From Candidatus Omnitrophota bacterium (GTDB taxonomy: Bacteria; Omnitrophota; Koll11; Tantalellales; Tantalellaceae), in the NCBI GenBank assembly GCA_015231715.1, contig JADGBB010000002.1:2147-65937 (forward strand): a stretch of 63,791 nucleotides of DNA, read 5' to 3'. This document shows, piece by piece, positions 4,522 through 11,200 of this stretch. The notes below the pieces were generated by a model. That model searched no databases, was not told the origin of the DNA, and worked only from the letters and a program-made list of their open reading frames with translations. The first letter of the stretch is position 1. Every line of letters starts with the position of its first letter. The translations under genes were made by a program, and so were the position numbers.

Positions 4522-5484
4522 ATGGAAAAAATATTTATTAAAGATCTTAAAGTTAAAAATGTAGTTAAAACGTATTTTATGATTACAAAAAAAACTCAAA
4601 AGCTTACTAAATACGACAAGCCCTATTTAGAGGTAACTTTGATGGATAGTTCCGGAAAAATTGAAGGTCGGGTATGGGATAATGCAGAAACAATAGGGAA
4701 CAAAGTCGACTCCGGTGATGTTGTTATGGTTACTGCTCAGGTAGAAGAATTCAGAGAAGAAAAACAATTAAAGATCGATAATATTGAAAAGATGGAAGAA
4801 AAAGATTTTAATTATGAGGATCTTATAAAAGTAGCAGAAGGTCTTGAAGAGATCGAAAAAAACATAAAGAGATCTTTAAGTGAAATAAAAGATCCATGGA
4901 TAAAAAAATTAGCGGACGAATTTTTAGATGATGAAACTTTTATGAAAGCTTTTAGAAACGCTGCCGGGGCTAAAAGCTGGCATAACGCTTATATAGGCGG
5001 GTTAATGGAGCACACGAACGAGGTAATGCAGATAGTGCTCAAGGTTGCTGAACTATATCCCGATGCTGATAGGGATCTGTTGATATTTGGTTCCTTTATG
5101 CATGATATAGGCAAGATATATGAATTAGATAGTAAAAAAATGGATTATACGGTAGAAGGAAGACTTATCGGGCATATATCAATCGGCTGCAGGATGCTGA
5201 ACGACAAAATAGCTTCTATAAAGGATTTTCCAAATGAACTTTCAATTCATATCCAACACATAATTTTAAGTCATCACGGAGAATATGAGCAGCAATCTCC
5301 GGTTCTGCCTCTAACTCTTGAAGCCAATGTGATCTATCAGGCAGATGATCTAGTGTCGCAGGCAAATGCAGTAAATGGGATCATTTCTTCCCAATCCGAC
5401 GGATCAAAAGAGTGGAGTAATTATGTGTCTATAAAAAATCGTAAGTATTTACTTAGAAAACAAAAAGATGTTACTCCGCTCTGA
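4522..5484 (+). CDS. yhaM: YhaM-type 3'-5' exoribonuclease (OB-fold plus HD domain)
   Basis: A 320-residue protein with an N-terminal OB-fold nucleic-acid-binding domain (about residues 1-85, including EGRVWDNAE and MVTAQVEEFRE) followed by an HD phosphohydrolase domain: HNAYIGGLMEHT, the metal-binding HD pair in FMHDIGKI, and SHHGEYEQQSP. This is the domain order of YhaM/Cbf1, which trims RNA and single-stranded DNA from the 3' end. The start at 4522 is set by a GGGGAG ribosome site placed over the stop of the helicase gene; an in-frame upstream start at 4468 lies inside that gene and is unlikely. Its 3' end overlaps the convergent gene by 14 bases. Confidence 0.85.
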   Translation: MEKIFIKDLKVKNVVKTYFMITKKTQKLTKYDKPYLEVTLMDSSGKIEGRVWDNAETIGNKVDSGDVVMVTAQVEEFREEKQLKIDNIEKMEEKDFNYEDLIKVAEGLEEIEKNIKRSLSEIKDPWIKKLADEFLDDETFMKAFRNAAGAKSWHNAYIGGLMEHTNEVMQIVLKVAELYPDADRDLLIFGSFMHDIGKIYELDSKKMDYTVEGRLIGHISIGCRMLNDKIASIKDFPNELSIHIQHIILSHHGEYEQQSPVLPLTLEANVIYQADDLVSQANAVNGIISSQSDGSKEWSNYVSIKNRKYLLRKQKDVTPL

Positions 5485-6379
5485 CATCATCGATATAAAA
5501 AGGGCCTGAATAGATAGGTTTTCTGTCGCTTTCGATTCTTATTCCTATTTTCCGTATATCTGTTTTAAAATCCATATCAACTAAAGTACGTTTCCAATCG
5601 CGGCTAGTTTCCGAAATATCAGAAGTAATTGTGTTCCATTTTCCCGGGATCAAGGGGATTGAATGGGACATTTCAACAAAACGCCAGCTGTCGCTTACCG
5701 TTAAGATAAATCTTCCGCGCAATCCCTTTGGGCAGTTATGCGGAACGAATACTTCAGCGATGAGACTATTGTAATTGCCTAGGTCAAAATAATGCGGGAG
5801 TTCGATATAAGCGGCAGTCCATTGTCCTCCCGGAAATGAACTATTGACCTTAAGGCTGTATTGGCCGTTAGCAGAGATGCCTTTGATCAACTGGATATCA
5901 GTTGCTACATGATCTTGTTTCTCTTCTGCCCAATTCGGTATCTCCCAACCGTCAATATCATTTTCAAAATCGGAAATAGTGTATGCATTCACATTTGTGA
6001 GAGTTTGCGTGGGAATAGCCGCTAAGTTTTCCATATCTATCAATACAGTATCGGTTTTTTCTGTTCCGTCTGATAAAGTGTTAATAACAGTAAAAAAAAC
6101 TTTGTTGTTCTGCAGAAATAAAAAAGCAAATATTAAAGACGCAATAATTATCGAAAGTAAGCAGATAATAATAATAAACGGAGCTTTGCTGACCCGGTCA
6201 TGATATACAATACTTGCCGGAGTATCAACAGGTAAAATTTCTTGTGGAATAACCGCGGGAATAACAGGGGAAATATTATCCGCAGGTTCAGTTTTAACCT
6301 TCTTTTTGAAATATGCTTTCGAAAGCATTCTATCTATTTCATCGTATGTTTCATTATCTTTCATTGTAATTTTCACCAT
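5471..6379 (-). CDS. Single-pass membrane protein with C-terminal carbohydrate-binding-like beta-sandwich
   Basis: About 300 residues: a charged, proline-rich cytoplasmic N-terminus of about 65 residues, one strongly hydrophobic segment near residues 68-91 (KAPFIIIICLLSIIIASL), then an outward-facing domain. Positive residues before the helix predict N-in topology. The distal domain begins ISDFENDIDGWEI and ends GPFYIDDVRAE; this start/end pattern is typical of galactose-binding-like jelly rolls such as CBM11/CBM30/CIA30, but I cannot assign a family firmly. An inner ATG at 6364 has a weak GGTG upstream and may be the true start. The gene diverges from the ParA-CBM48 gene across 137 bases, which suggests a joint function in glycan handling (inference). 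Confidence 0.7.
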   Translation of the reverse strand: MVKITMKDNETYDEIDRMLSKAYFKKKVKTEPADNISPVIPAVIPQEILPVDTPASIVYHDRVSKAPFIIIICLLSIIIASLIFAFLFLQNNKVFFTVINTLSDGTEKTDTVLIDMENLAAIPTQTLTNVNAYTISDFENDIDGWEIPNWAEEKQDHVATDIQLIKGISANGQYSLKVNSSFPGGQWTAAYIELPHYFDLGNYNSLIAEVFVPHNCPKGLRGRFILTVSDSWRFVEMSHSIPLIPGKWNTITSDISETSRDWKRTLVDMDFKTDIRKIGIRIESDRKPIYSGPFYIDDVRAE

Positions 6380-6434
6380 TAGCTATTTAACTAATAAACA
6401 TATTACACTAAAATAAAAAACAAATCAACTTTAC

Positions 6435-6462
6435 TTGTTTTTGAAAACTTATATGATATACT
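6435..6462 (+). promoter_or_regulatory. Candidate sigma70-type promoter of the ParA-CBM48 gene
   Basis: TTGTTT at 6435-6440, a 16-base spacer and a good -10 box TATACT at 6457-6462 lie in the divergent intergenic region, about 55 bases before the ATG. The -35 is weak, so this is a by-eye call. Confidence 0.4.
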
Positions 6463-6516
6463 GTTTTTATAATAAAAAATTGTTTCGTTTAACCTGAAAA
6501 AACTAGGGAGGTATAA

Positions 6517-7560
6517 ATGAAAATCATATCTGTTGTAAACCAAAAAGGCGGATGTGGTAAAACAACTCTTGCAGTTAATATGGCTGCGGCTTTGGCTAAG
6601 TTAGGATACGAAACACTTTTGATAGATTTAGATCCCCAGGCTCATGCAACTTATGCTTTGGGATACACAAAAAACAGCAAGATCACTAAAACGGCATATG
6701 ATCTTTTTGCTCCACTAAGCGATGGAGAGCAAATTAGTTATGAAGACATGATCATAAATGACCGTACAAAATTATCTTTTATTCCGTCAAATATGATGTT
6801 AAGTACAGCCGAAATTAGTTTAGGGGATATTTCCGGTGCAGCATCTATTTTAAATGACCATTTAGCTAATGAATTTTTTTCCAAATATGATTATATTCTA
6901 GTCGATTCACCTCCAAGTTTTGGTTTTTTGACTTTGAATTCAATATACTCTTCAAATCTTATATTAGTGCCCGTGGACATTAGTTATTTTTCATTTAATG
7001 GTGTAAACAGCATATACAGAGTTACCAGCTTATTAGAAAAAGAAACCGGGAAAAAGCCGGACCTACATTTTATGCTTAATATTTTCGACGGCAGATCAAA
7101 ATTTTCTAGAGAGTTTGTTAAAGTAGCCGAAGAAAAATTGGGCAAGTATCTTTTTGATACAAAAATTCGATCAAGTGTAAGATTAAGAGAGGCAGCCCAG
7201 GAAGGGAAAACTATATTCGAACATGATTCTAAATCATCTTCTGCGTTAGATTTTTATAATGCAACTTGTGAGCTGGTGAATATTGATTCAAAAGAAGTCG
7301 ATACGATCATAAAAGAGTTTTTCTTAAATGCTCCCTCCGCAGGTTCTGTATATGTTTTGGGGGACTTTAACGGATGGAAAAGGACAGAGGCTAATAAATT
7401 ATCAAGGCTTGAAGACGGGAAATGGTCGGCACATTATCATTTGCCCAAAGGAAGATATAGATATAAATATCTAGTTGACGGTAATTGGGTGCACGATCCG
7501 AACAATGAAAGGGCAGAGCCGAATATTTTTGGAAGTGTTGATTCTATAGCTGAGTTTTAA
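6517..7560 (+). CDS. ParA/Soj-family ATPase fused to a C-terminal AMPK-beta/CBM48 glycogen-binding domain
   Basis: 347 residues. Residues 1-250 are a ParA/MinD-type ATPase: deviant Walker A NQKGGCGKTT with signature Lys10 and Lys15, switch I region LIDLDPQAHATYAL, and Walker B YILVDSPPS. Residues 267-347 form an early-set/CBM48 glycogen-binding domain like that of AMPK beta: VYVLGDFNGWKR (Trp287), YRYKYLVDG (Lys317) and NWVHDPNNE (Trp324), which align with the aromatic and lysine residues that hold glucan chains in AMPK beta. No ParB partner is adjacent. The fusion suggests an ATPase that positions glucan or glycogen granules on the nucleoid, as McdA does for carboxysomes; that is inference. 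The CBM48 could instead be a protein-interaction module. A strong GGGAGG ribosome site precedes the ATG. Confidence 0.9.
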   Translation: MKIISVVNQKGGCGKTTLAVNMAAALAKLGYETLLIDLDPQAHATYALGYTKNSKITKTAYDLFAPLSDGEQISYEDMIINDRTKLSFIPSNMMLSTAEISLGDISGAASILNDHLANEFFSKYDYILVDSPPSFGFLTLNSIYSSNLILVPVDISYFSFNGVNSIYRVTSLLEKETGKKPDLHFMLNIFDGRSKFSREFVKVAEEKLGKYLFDTKIRSSVRLREAAQEGKTIFEHDSKSSSALDFYNATCELVNIDSKEVDTIIKEFFLNAPSAGSVYVLGDFNGWKRTEANKLSRLEDGKWSAHYHLPKGRYRYKYLVDGNWVHDPNNERAEPNIFGSVDSIAEF

Positions 7561-7719: not shown

Positions 7720-8667
7720 ATGAGCCAACCAATTCTTTATCCAAAAAACAAGCAGGACATTGTAGTTCGCTATGCAGGTAACCCTATTTTGACAAGGGAT
7801 GATGTGCCTTATGCAGCTAAAGGAGTTTATAATTCCGGTTGTATTAAAACTAAAGATGGTAAATATGTTATGCTGTGCAGAGTGGAAACGCCTTCAATGA
7901 AACAGTTCATATGGCCTGCTGATTCACAGGACGGTATAAATTTTAAATTTAGACCGGAACCGATAAAAATGCCTGATACAGATGAGTTCAAAGAATATAC
8001 AACCGGTATGTATTATGATCCGCGCGTTACTGAAATCGAGGGAAAATATTATGTAGTTTTCGCCTGTCATAGCGGTCATTCCTGCAGATTAGGTTTATTA
8101 GAATCACCGGATATGAAGAGTTTTAGTTTTAAAGGATTTATTTCAGAGACAGACAACAGGAACGGCGCGTTATTCCCAGAAAAAATTAACGGTTATTACT
8201 GCAGGTTGGACCGTCCAAATACCGGCGATGGAAGAGCATATATGTGGGTGTCTTATTCTCCGGATCTTGTTCATTGGGGGCAATCAAAATATGTAGCTTA
8301 CGCACAAGACGAATGGGGATGGAAAAAGAATGGTCCTGGGGCTGCTCCGATCAAAACAGATAAGGGCTGGTTAGTTATATATCATGCCGTTAATGTTCAA
8401 TGTGCGGCGCAGTATATTTATCACATAGGTGTAATGCTGTTAGATCTTAAAGATCCGTCAAAGGTTATAGCCAGAGCTAAGGCCCCGATACTTTCACCGA
8501 CAATGAATTATGAACTTAACGGTTTGACATATGCGGTAGTGTTTTCCGCAGGAGCGGTCGTTGAGCCTAACGGGGAAGTGAAGATATATTACGGCGGAGC
8601 AGATACGGTTCAATGTTTGGCGACAGCTAAGCTTGATGATCTTATTGATGCTTGTTTTAATAGATAG
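7720..8667 (+). CDS. Glycoside hydrolase family 130 protein (probable beta-mannoside phosphorylase)
   Basis: A 315-residue five-bladed beta-propeller protein of the GH130 type. Family marks are NPILTRDDVP near residue 21, the acid-bearing YDPRVTEIEGKYYV around residue 108, GPGAAPIKTDKGWLVIYH, and the terminal blade motif IYYGGADT. Characterised GH130 enzymes phosphorolyse beta-1,4-mannooligosaccharides, mannosyl-glucose or mannosyl-GlcNAc; some hydrolyse beta-1,2-mannosides. No signal peptide is seen, so it should act in the cytoplasm. It is flanked by terminators on both sides and is therefore probably monocistronic. AAAGGAAATT supplies the ribosome site. Substrate cannot be told from sequence alone. 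Confidence 0.87.
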   Translation: MSQPILYPKNKQDIVVRYAGNPILTRDDVPYAAKGVYNSGCIKTKDGKYVMLCRVETPSMKQFIWPADSQDGINFKFRPEPIKMPDTDEFKEYTTGMYYDPRVTEIEGKYYVVFACHSGHSCRLGLLESPDMKSFSFKGFISETDNRNGALFPEKINGYYCRLDRPNTGDGRAYMWVSYSPDLVHWGQSKYVAYAQDEWGWKKNGPGAAPIKTDKGWLVIYHAVNVQCAAQYIYHIGVMLLDLKDPSKVIARAKAPILSPTMNYELNGLTYAVVFSAGAVVEPNGEVKIYYGGADTVQCLATAKLDDLIDACFNR

Positions 8668-8768: not shown

Positions 8769-9278
8769 ATGGCTAAAAGACGTGACGGGTGGGGATCAAG
8801 ACTTGGCGTTATTATGGCAGTTGCAGGCTCTGCTGTTGGATTAGGGAATTTTTTAAGGTTTCCGGTTCAGGCGGCGCAGAACGGCGGAGGCGCATTTATG
8901 ATCCCTTATTTTATCGCGCTTGTCCTTGTAGGTATCCCGATAATGTGGGTTGAATGGTCGATAGGCAGATACGGCGGAGGGTATGGCCATTCGAGCGCTC
9001 CGGGAGTATTTGATTCTGTTTGGAAGAAAAACCGTTTTATAAAATATTTCGGTGTAGTTGGGATATTTGGCCCAATGGTAATTATGGTCTACTACACCTA
9101 CATTGAGTCTTGGACGCTTGCATATAGTTTTTTTTGCTTTAGTTCAAAAATATTCAGGAATAAAAGATCAGGTTTCAATGGAGAATTTTCTTTCAGCTTT
9201 TCAAGGGTTAAAGAAAAACGAATATTTTTCCAGCATACAAACCGCATATACATTTTTTCTTATAACTTTTGCTATTAA
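8769..9278 (+). CDS. LeuT-like sodium:amino-acid symporter (NSS family), N-terminal part before a frameshift
   Basis: Residues 1-122 are the N-terminal third of a LeuT/MhsT-type neurotransmitter:sodium symporter: the unwound TM1 motif [21 protein letters not shown] with the sodium-site Ala and Asn positions kept, and TM2 [15 protein letters not shown]. The reading frame loses homology at the T8 run 9128-9135, after AYSFF, and the remaining residues to 9278 are out-of-frame noise. The continuation lies one frame over. Together the pieces rebuild a full-length transporter of about 518 residues. A GGAG ribosome site precedes the ATG. Expected role: sodium-driven uptake of small hydrophobic amino acids at the inner membrane. 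Confidence 0.85.
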
Positions 9279-10326
9279 TATCATAGTCCTTAAAAACGGA
9301 ATTAAAGGCGGTATAGAAAAGTTCTGCAAATTTGCTATGCCTACACTTTTTATTTTCGGTATAATTTTGGCTGTCAGGGTTTTGACATTGGGAACACCGG
9401 ATGCTTCTAAGCCCACATGGAACATAATGAACGGGTTAGGGTATTTATGGAATCCTGATTTTTCTAAATTATTATCCGCTAAAGTATGGCTTGCCGCAAC
9501 AGGTCAAATATTTTTTACTTTAAGTGTTGGGATAGGCGTAATCCTTACTTATGCAAGTTATCTGAAAAAAGGGGATGATGTTGCATTATCGGGCCTTACT
9601 GCGGTAAGCATGAATGAAACCGCTGAAGTTATTATAGGAGGCAGCATAATAATCCCTGCTGCATTTGTTTTCTTTGGGCCTTTGATGATCTCACAAATAG
9701 CTAATTCAGGAGCGTTTAATCTAGGATTTGTTACAATGCCTTTAATTTTTAATTATATGCCCCTTAGTGAAGTTTTGGGGTTTTTATGGTTTGCGCTTCT
9801 TTTTTTAGCCGGAGTTACATCAAGCGTCTCGTTGTCACAGCCGGCAATATCTTTTCTTGAAGATGAATTCGAACTGACCCACAATAAAGCTGTCGCAATT
9901 TTCGGCGGTGTTACTTTTTTATTGTGTCATGCCGCTATATTTTTTCTGGGTAACGGAGTGGTGGATGAACTCGACTTTTGGGGAGGGACTTTTTGTTTAG
10001 TTGTGTTTGCCGCTATTGAAGTAGTTTTATTCGGTTGGGTTTTCGGCATTGAAAAAGCTTGGGAAGAAGTTCATCATGGAGCAGATCTAAGGATCCCGAG
10101 ATTTTATAAGTTCATTATAAAATATGTAACCCCGATATTTCTGTTTATTATTTTAGGAACGTGGTTTTTTCAAGAATGGCTGCCGATAATCAGCATGAAA
10201 AATACACCGGAAGTAAATAAGTTTGCCGTAATGCTCACGCGAGCCGGGCTTTGCGGTCTTTTTTTACTTTTAGCAGTTCTTGTCAAAACAGCCTGGAAAA
10301 GAAGGAAAAAGGAGGGTGTCCGATGA
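9103..10326 (+). CDS. LeuT-like NSS symporter, C-terminal part after the frameshift
   Basis: Carries TM3 to TM12 of the same LeuT-like symporter. Homology begins directly after the T8 run ([12 protein letters not shown]) and includes TM6 [20 protein letters not shown], the loop [13 protein letters not shown], and TM8 [13 protein letters not shown], whose serines form the second sodium site in LeuT. The ATG at 9103 lies within the overlap and in out-of-frame sequence, with no ribosome site, so independent translation of this part is unlikely. It needs a +1 slip at 9128-9135, a one-base shorter T run, or transcript slippage. The stop overlaps the start of the small subunit gene (ATGA). Confidence 0.83.
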
Positions 10327-10469: not shown

Positions 10470-10497
10470 ATACATAGTGTTAAAAGGGAGGTTTTTG

Positions 10498-10731
10498 ATG
10501 GAAAAAGATATTGCTTCTTTTGAAAAGAATAAATACCAGGATATTAGGGTGCGTGTTTCTGAATATCAGGGGAACGATGTCATTGATATCAGAGTATGGA
10601 CACAGCCGCCTCAAGGAGACGAGAAAGTTCCTACAGGAAAAGGTGTGAACATTAATGTTAAACTTTTTCCTAAGCTTAAAGAAGCTATCGATAAGCTGGG
10701 GGAAACAATTAAAGAAAACAACCTTATTTAA
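10498..10731 (+). CDS. PC4/p15-like single-stranded DNA-binding transcription cofactor
   Basis: A 77-residue protein matching the bacterial PC4 fold: an N-terminal acidic stretch, then IRVRVSEYQGNDVIDIRVW, the GKGVNINVKLFPKL turn and a C-terminal amphipathic helix LKEAIDKLGETI. Family members form dimers that bind single-stranded DNA or act as transcription cofactors. ATG 10498 is chosen because GGGAGG sits six bases upstream; a GTG at 10477 lies before that site and is not credible. It is followed by the PilZ gene with a 34-base gap. Confidence 0.8.
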   Translation: MEKDIASFEKNKYQDIRVRVSEYQGNDVIDIRVWTQPPQGDEKVPTGKGVNINVKLFPKLKEAIDKLGETIKENNLI

Positions 10732-10765
10732 TATTTGCTGAAAAGTTTATCAGATTGAGGTGATC

Positions 10766-11200
10766 ATGGAAAATGACCGAAGAAAATATATCAGGCATTT
10801 GCTTGTAAGTCCACTGGAGTATAAAGTGGAAGATGAGATACCTTTCAGCAAAACACATACTGTCGATATGGGTGAGGGGGGCTTGCTTTTTACAGCTAAA
10901 AATGATGTGCCTATTGGTTCGCAGATAGAAATTAAAATGCCTCTATACGAAAAAGTATTTAACATTAAAGCAAAAGTTGTGCACACAGCAAAAGATCCAG
11001 AAGATCAATTATTTAAAATCGGAGTTTCTTTTTCTTCATATTCAGATGCATTTAAAGTTAAACTTATAGAACAGATCTATCTTATCGAAGAGTACAGAGT
11101 ATTAAGATCATTGCAGCTAGGCCGCGACATATCTCTTCAAGAAGCTTCTGAAGAGTGGATAAAACGCTACTCAGAACGTTTCAAAAAACTCTACTGGTAA
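10766..11200 (+). CDS. PilZ-domain protein (probable c-di-GMP receptor)
   Basis: A 144-residue protein with the two c-di-GMP-contact motifs of PilZ: RRKYIR near residue 5 (RxxxR type) and DMGEGG near residue 37 (the D/NxSxxG motif with Gly in place of Ser). A beta-barrel follows and then a helical C-terminal extension of about 45 residues (LIEEYRVLRSLQLGRD...). A GAGG ribosome site sits five bases before ATG 10766; a GTG six bases earlier would overlap it. It may be a cytoplasmic effector linking c-di-GMP to pili or motility (inference). Confidence 0.83.
   Translation: MENDRRKYIRHLLVSPLEYKVEDEIPFSKTHTVDMGEGGLLFTAKNDVPIGSQIEIKMPLYEKVFNIKAKVVHTAKDPEDQLFKIGVSFSSYSDAFKVKLIEQIYLIEEYRVLRSLQLGRDISLQEASEEWIKRYSERFKKLYW

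Follow-up and report, generated by a model that had tools for sequence, protein, structure and literature searches.

A recurrent ParA-type ATPase fused to an AMPK-beta/CBM48 domain, with a putative adaptor, in Candidatus Omnitrophota

Described relatives and the ParA-CBM48 locus

Among the described systems closest to the locus reported here, some pair a ParA-type ATPase with a partner and others link a storage polymer to DNA. In ParABS, Soj/ParA is accompanied by an adjacent ParB with CTPase and DNA-binding domains. In McdA/McdB a ParA-type ATPase and a cargo adaptor serve a non-DNA cargo, as outlined in a 2025 organelle-positioning review (PMC13052382). That review also describes PhaM and PhaF as tethering polyhydroxybutyrate (PHB) granules by histone-like DNA-binding domains, and states that PhaM, PhaF and PhaH lack homology to ParA, with no ATPase known for them. 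BcsQ and other MinD/ParA proteins of polysaccharide systems likewise connect a ParA/MinD ATPase with carbohydrate. Glycogen is among the commonest bacterial reserves. Judged from listings of open-licence literature, no report of its active positioning or inheritance was found and a ParA-CBM48 fusion has no apparent description; the word glycogen occurs nowhere in the text of PMC13052382. Here we describe such a fusion gene and its divergently transcribed neighbour, a putative adaptor, in a stretch of 63,791 nucleotides (the window) from contig JADGBB010000002.1 of a Candidatus Omnitrophota bacterium.

The fusion protein shares with Soj/ParA the ATPase fold, the deviant Walker A motif, the basic positions associated with DNA binding and most of the ParB pocket, and its partner has an N-terminal amphipathic docking-like helix; it differs from ParABS in its usual Walker A Cys, its C-terminal CBM48 domain and scanned partners that lack a ParB domain. 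The likeness to McdA/McdB lies in a ParA-type ATPase with a cargo adaptor, whereas here it is the ATPase that carries the domain proposed to bind the cargo; no search for McdB or carboxysomes was made. The C-terminal domain belongs to the family found in AMPK-beta, GlgB and isoamylases and carries their Trp, Lys, Trp signature, but is here joined to a ParA ATPase rather than to a kinase subunit or a glycosidase. The strongest result is a recurrent pair of ATPase and putative adaptor that appears ParA-ParB-like in its docking parts and is not ParABS. With the fusion and its intact motifs, the conserved glucan-contact residues, the adjacent motif-bearing partner and the recurrence over phyla in hand, we tentatively interpret the pair, at somewhat less than even confidence, as a two-protein ParA-type positioning system whose ATPase would bind alpha-glucan.

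The fusion gene and its spread

The ParA-CBM48 gene (6517..7560, + strand) is an open reading frame (ORF) of 347 amino acids with an ATG start and the sequence ggaggt just 5′ of it, recognised by Pfam, by an AlphaFold2 (AF2) model and by its relatives in loci L001 and L002, whose products are 66% and 61% identical to it. Residues 1-258 (6517..7290, +) form a Soj-type ParA ATPase domain, of which AAA_31 covers residues 1-177 (E=5.7e-46). The initial annotation had read complete ParA-type motifs here, and both are intact where it placed them: the deviant Walker A motif KGGCGKT with K10 and K15 (residues 10-16; 6544..6564, +) and the Walker B motif D130-S131-P132-P133 (6904..6915, +). The protein thus combines the two-Lys deviant Walker A, the Walker B and the ParA fold that are traits of the ParA family. 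The full-length AF2 model, built from a 46-row alignment, reached a pLDDT of 89.8 and a pTM of 0.85; its structure matches were to the ParA domain throughout the list.

Among 81 aligned family members, K10, G11, G12, C13, G14 and K15 are each invariant, although the invariance of the Cys in the first loci is biased because these were picked partly by the peptide NQKGGCGK. In the profile-found loci L123-L162, of which L160 duplicates L142, the Cys is present in 39 of 40; L153 has Val, and L140 reads GCAK. The 13 out-of-clade ParAs in which the motif was read have V or T at this position. In Walker B, D130 and P133 are invariant, P132 is kept in 80 of 81 members, and at position 131 there are 73 members with C and 6 with S. 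The window protein has R193, R222 and R224, positions that are basic in 81, 64 and 78 of the 81 members, respectively. R222 occupies the position of R238 in Myxococcus xanthus (M. xanthus) ParA (K/R in 64/81), whose R238E variant is reported to lack non-specific DNA binding.

The C-terminal region, residues 268-347 (7318..7557, +), is a CBM48/AMPK-beta-type domain. Where the initial annotation had placed a CBM48 (residues 267-347), the Pfam profiles matched both AMPK1_CBM (PF16561, residues 276-334, E=1.7e-12, 47.8 bits against a cut-off of 26.8) and CBM_48 (PF02922, residues 268-336, E=1.9e-7, 31.7 bits against 22.4), and the AF2 model has strands between residues 263 and 346. In alignments to AMPK beta-1 (4yef, 1z0m and 1z0n; E from 4e-9 to 9e-9), W287 and W324 each fall on a Trp and K317 falls on a Lys; these AMPK residues contact glucan. 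The glucan-binding signature previously proposed for these three residues is thus correctly positioned: W287, W324 and also W303 are invariant in the 81 aligned members, and position 317 is K in 31, R in 35 and Q in 15. Position 342, which presumably corresponds to an AMPK Asn, is D or N and once S. The Trp...Trp pattern fits 39 of 41 fusions of a further set, the misses being L158, in which both Trp are present, and L181 (genome G019), which lacks the second Trp; the rest of this second set keeps both. From these residues and the gene context described below, the CBM48 domain probably binds glucan.

The fusion of a Soj-type ParA to an AMPK-beta/CBM48 domain is real. It is not a chance joining, because four surveys together yielded 177 genomes that have it (109 + 56 + 7 + 5), and the survey of other genomes that had been proposed for it thus shows recurrence across several phyla. 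A protein search returned 3752 homologues at E<=1e-3, plain ParAs included, and PF16561 was counted by eye on 116 of 120 homologues among the matches listed. The discovery loci are the best 80 of 572, in which the query matched from residue 1 to 336-347; their records are from Omnitrophota/Omnitrophica, with fewer from Desulfobacterales/Desulfobacteraceae, Syntrophaceae, Deltaproteobacteria, Krumholzibacteriota, Eisenbacteria, Zixibacteria, Latescibacterota, Rokubacteria, Planctomycetales and others. In a profile survey at E<=1e-90, 109 of 146 Omnitrophota genomes carry the fusion, 106 end to end and three (G094, G046 and G019) that seemed CBM-less and, when inspected one by one, were counted as fusions with the CBM48 behind a long linker. 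At E<=1e-105 the fusion was found in 56 of 78 genomes sampled from the phylum to which a Krumholzibacteriota record belongs, the Latescibacterota genome G006 being one of the 78, in 7 of 79 from that of a Rokubacteria record and in 5 of 118 from that of a Desulfobacterales record.

Fusion genomes also hold plain ParAs: each of eight genomes examined has at least one additional CBM-less ParA match, and in contrast to the fusion loci, seven of the eight have a CBM-less ParA followed by a gene that starts with a canonical ParB-like LG(K/R)GL.AL, read by eye. In an unrooted tree of ParA domains (LG+G4), 15 plain ParAs stand apart from the fusions with support of 100, and the CBM-less L168 and L182 nest among the fusions and share KGGCGKT. 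Small stand-alone CBM48 proteins of about 100-125 amino acids were observed as well, with four matches in the Desulfobacterales genome G005 and two near ParA-CBM48 genes (L135:10467-10844 and L158:10666-11001).

The partner gene and its docking-like peptide

Head to head with the fusion gene, across a divergent intergenic region of 137 bp (6380..6516), lies a gene for a putative adaptor of 302 amino acids (5471..6379, − strand), with homologues at the same place in L001 and L002. Homologues, the AF2 model and fold matches outline a docking-like motif, a membrane helix and an outer CBM27-like beta-sandwich. The ParB-like amphipathic motif, YDEIDRMLSKAYFKKK, spans residues 12-27 (6299..6346, −) and was found by alignment, with an AF2 helix at residues 12-23. 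A single membrane-spanning helix (6077..6178, −; AF2 helix of residues 68-101, supported by hydropathy) has basic residues N-terminal to it, and residues 133-301 (5477..5983, −) form a predicted extracytoplasmic carbohydrate-binding-module-like domain, based on the AF2 model and fold matches.

In ParB, the ParA-docking helix includes L11, R13, L15, L18 and I19 (PMC12462528). The adaptor residues I15, R17, L19 and Y23 share the spacing of L11, R13, L15 and I19, with A22 at the L18 position. On the ATPase side, PMC12462528 reports that L150, L152, L155 and L187 of M. xanthus ParA matter for ParB binding. In an alignment to 8ray, which its sequence and numbering suggest to be M. xanthus D60A ParA, these correspond to window F135, F137, L140 and L172, in columns that are hydrophobic in every row; together with I100 they would give the window protein a hydrophobic pocket, the L192 position excepted.

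A motif-bearing neighbour gene was identified in 67 of the 80 loci of the discovery set, where a few of the matches are chance ones in membrane helices, in 22 of 34 new loci and in all 13 relatives of G181; the 22/34 is the stricter count, a looser 28/39 having used 90 residues, ORFs from 70 amino acids and the discovery genomes. This recurrence bears on the model of the initial annotation, in which no adaptor exists and the CBM48 alone loads the ATPase onto glycogen. No ParB match was obtained among eight window proteins, the representatives of the gene clusters and ten proteins that are partners or neighbours in relatives, so the statement that no ParB gene lies nearby stands for the window proteins scanned, and the adjacent ParB with CTPase/DNA-binding domains that defines ParABS is absent from the scanned neighbours. 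That absence favours the adaptor-less model; against it, a gene resembling an adaptor, whose product begins with a ParB-like peptide, adjoins the fusion in most loci, the window included. The claim that the CBM48 replaces the adaptor is unsupported because the motif partner neighbours the ATPase in most loci, and we consider an adaptor-less ParA highly improbable.

The putative adaptors vary in architecture. Of those of the membrane type (clusters c1, c11 and c42), 50 of 51 exceed a hydropathy threshold, including all 3 of c42, whereas in 34 of 45 motif genes of the downstream type no hydrophobic segment exceeds it. The adaptor is accordingly modelled as inner-membrane-anchored with its CBM-like domain outside in the lineage of the window, and as mostly soluble in other lineages. 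We do not claim a degenerate MinD-like domain as the origin of the soluble adaptors; among ten proteins examined, only that of L023 has a sub-threshold CbiA match, and alignment A3 (mean identity 20%) is too divergent. In L045 (9074-11014), the frame of an adaptor with the motif IAHLYI stays open through a masked stretch and continues as an NrfD-like membrane protein, a joining that is possibly an artefact of the masking.

The CBM-less clade member L168 (7109-8713, −) has an acidic low-complexity tail in place of the CBM48, and beside it is a 102-amino-acid partner with an ISHIFL motif. Since this ParA keeps its partner, the docking-like peptide seems to go with the ParA part.

Gene context and the candidate cargo

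Glycogen gene clusters adjoin the fusion in three scattered lineages. In L123, a same-strand run comprises a debranching enzyme, a GT4/GT5-like glycosyltransferase, a GH57, a 1441-amino-acid fusion of glycogen synthase (PF05693) and phosphorylase (TIGR02094), the ParA-CBM48 gene and the adaptor. L135 holds the fusion, a lone 125-amino-acid CBM48 protein, two GT4, a GH57 branching-type enzyme (NF041133, 445 bits, under the cut-off of 1000), an alpha-glucan phosphorylase and a further GH57, and L005 has convergent GH77, GH57-DUF3536, glycogen phosphorylase (TIGR02093, 1197 bits) and GT4 genes. In L061 and L072, GH13 enzymes with their own AMPK1_CBM lie about 5.5 and 3 kb from the fusion. Within the 109 Omnitrophota carriers, a GH57 lies within 10 kb of the fusion in 33, where about 0.9 would be expected under random placement in 1.8-Mb genomes; these neighbourhoods are largely one conserved arrangement. 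Around 16 CBM48-less ParA sites of the eight genomes, the search gave no match to GH57, GT35, GT3, GH77 or debranching enzymes and two weak ones to GT4; the sugar queries came from fusion loci, so this control covers those gene types. By a manual count, 102 of the 109 Omnitrophota genomes with the fusion have GlgA, versus 28 of 37 fusion-less genomes (p=0.005). Over all surveys considered, phosphorylase is present in 12 of 18 fusion genomes without a GlgA match. Glycogen genes are therefore not absent from all carriers; such a general absence would have spoken against the glucan link proposed earlier. Co-occurrence with GlgA, weak in Omnitrophota and absent in the phylum of G007, was rejected as proof; the alpha-glucan link of the system is plausible, though not proven.

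In the proposed mechanism, ATP-bound ParA-CBM48 dimers would hold nucleoid DNA through the ParA domain, the two CBM48 domains of the dimer, on linkers of variable length, would grip alpha-glucan (glycogen and the enzymes on it), and docking of the adaptor peptide would contribute to positioning. We regard it as possible, rather than probable, that this is an undescribed ParA system for the active positioning and segregation of glycogen, or for its coupling to the envelope, in which the ATPase has the glucan hook and fast-evolving soluble or membrane adaptors share only a short ParB-like activating peptide. Glycogen is a reasonable, though unproven, candidate for the cargo that is moved.

A number of observations weigh against this interpretation. 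On the docking side, the family does not keep two pocket residues of M. xanthus: the column of V116, where the window has I100, is mostly Gln (71/81), and L192 falls beside a gap on a polar residue. Many adaptors have no Arg corresponding to ParB R13, and the glycogen-cluster locus L135 has no called motif partner downstream. The gene next to the window fusion encodes a GH130 and no alpha-glucan enzyme, and the adaptor in the window's lineage faces the envelope and has a mannan-type CBM fold. The L123 glycogen cluster was found around the fusion in none of 13 same-order relatives (E<=1e-12; contigs down to 5 kb) and is for that reason not presented as a conserved operon, and most other loci gave no strong match with the alpha-glucan queries. 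Several fusion-less Omnitrophota are among the smallest genomes, which weakens the GlgA association; GlgA is not tied to the fusion in G007's phylum (45/56 versus 15/22, p=0.37), GH57 presence is not associated with it in Omnitrophota (65/109 versus 20/37, by subtraction), and the single-contig Latescibacterota genome G006, with two fusions, has no GlgA or GlgP/phosphorylase match. Relatives of L005 (L198-L202 and L204) do not show its arrangement around their fusions, and the L135 arrangement was not found in L203, several contigs being short. Within the window, seven alpha-glucan queries against the ORFs gave nothing at E<=1e-4.

The lack of GlgA and GlgP matches in G006, the lost second Trp of L181 and the partner kept by L168, from which it follows that the core system may not need the CBM48, are what would be expected if the CBM48 were an E-set domain that contacts protein or DNA and binds no glucan, the adaptor setting an unrelated cargo. 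We consider this improbable, since both glucan-facing Trp are kept in 81/81 members, apparently beyond the need of the fold, and other nearby CBM48 copies are in GH13 enzymes or in a lone protein within a glucan cluster.

The AMPK-beta domain is thought to sense glycogen state. The adaptor could accordingly be the cargo, or its handle, in the distribution of a polysaccharide machine, surface machine or other envelope structure by the ATPase, with the CBM48 sensing glycogen state. The adaptor topology and CBM-like outer domain, the hydrophobic segments of the membrane-type adaptors and the mannoside-themed nearest neighbours in the window fit this proposal, as do small membrane proteins (cluster c4) in 25 of 81 loci, polysaccharide glycosyltransferase-like genes read by eye downstream in L128 and L130, and the alginate-export-like porins of cluster c3. 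The many downstream-type motif genes without a hydrophobic segment and the glycogen-metabolic contexts of L123 and L135 do not. Such gating is rather unlikely; glycogen sensing for an envelope function is nevertheless a serious rival to glycogen positioning, above all in the window's lineage, given its membrane adaptor and its neighbours with a mannoside theme. The c3 cluster itself, an outer-membrane beta-barrel/porin family of which one representative was scanned, occurs near the fusion in Omnitrophota, at L077:4272-5678 and 28 other loci (29/81).

A Lys/Arg-rich histone-like protein is encoded in 38 of 81 loci, in one Omnitrophota clade (median 28% K+R versus 13% for all ORFs), and in 37 of the 38 it follows the fusion on the same strand within about 1.1 kb; the window fusion has no such adjoining gene. 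Its representative has a C-terminal PF16325 (U32_C-like) match under the cut-off, an example being L054:2511-2939. PhaM, PhaF, PhaH and AlgP, of PHB and polyphosphate granules, similarly link a storage polymer to DNA, and the Lys/Arg-rich protein may parallel PhaM and PhaF.

The GH130 mannoside-phosphorylase-like gene of the window (7720..8667, +; PF04041, E=1.7e-50) is a neighbour and at most a candidate member of the system. Beyond it, at 8769-10326, a gene that we take to be sodium:neurotransmitter-symporter-like is broken into two overlapping ORFs of 169 and 407 amino acids, which suggests a frameshift in the sequence or the gene. A PilZ-domain gene (10760-11200) and a PC4-like small protein (10477-10731) lie between the fusion region and a cell-wall cluster read by eye.

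The ParA-CBM48/partner pair, recurrent in several phyla, may position glycogen or couple it to the cell envelope; if so, three quarters of the Omnitrophota genomes sampled would have such a system, with scattered occurrences in several further phyla. The findings also suggest that a ParB-like docking peptide may ride on adaptors of differing architecture, giving a handle for finding ParA cargoes by sequence. With a glucan-binding domain built into the ParA and a short, probably activating peptide borne by its neighbour, the question of glycogen positioning becomes testable with purified parts.
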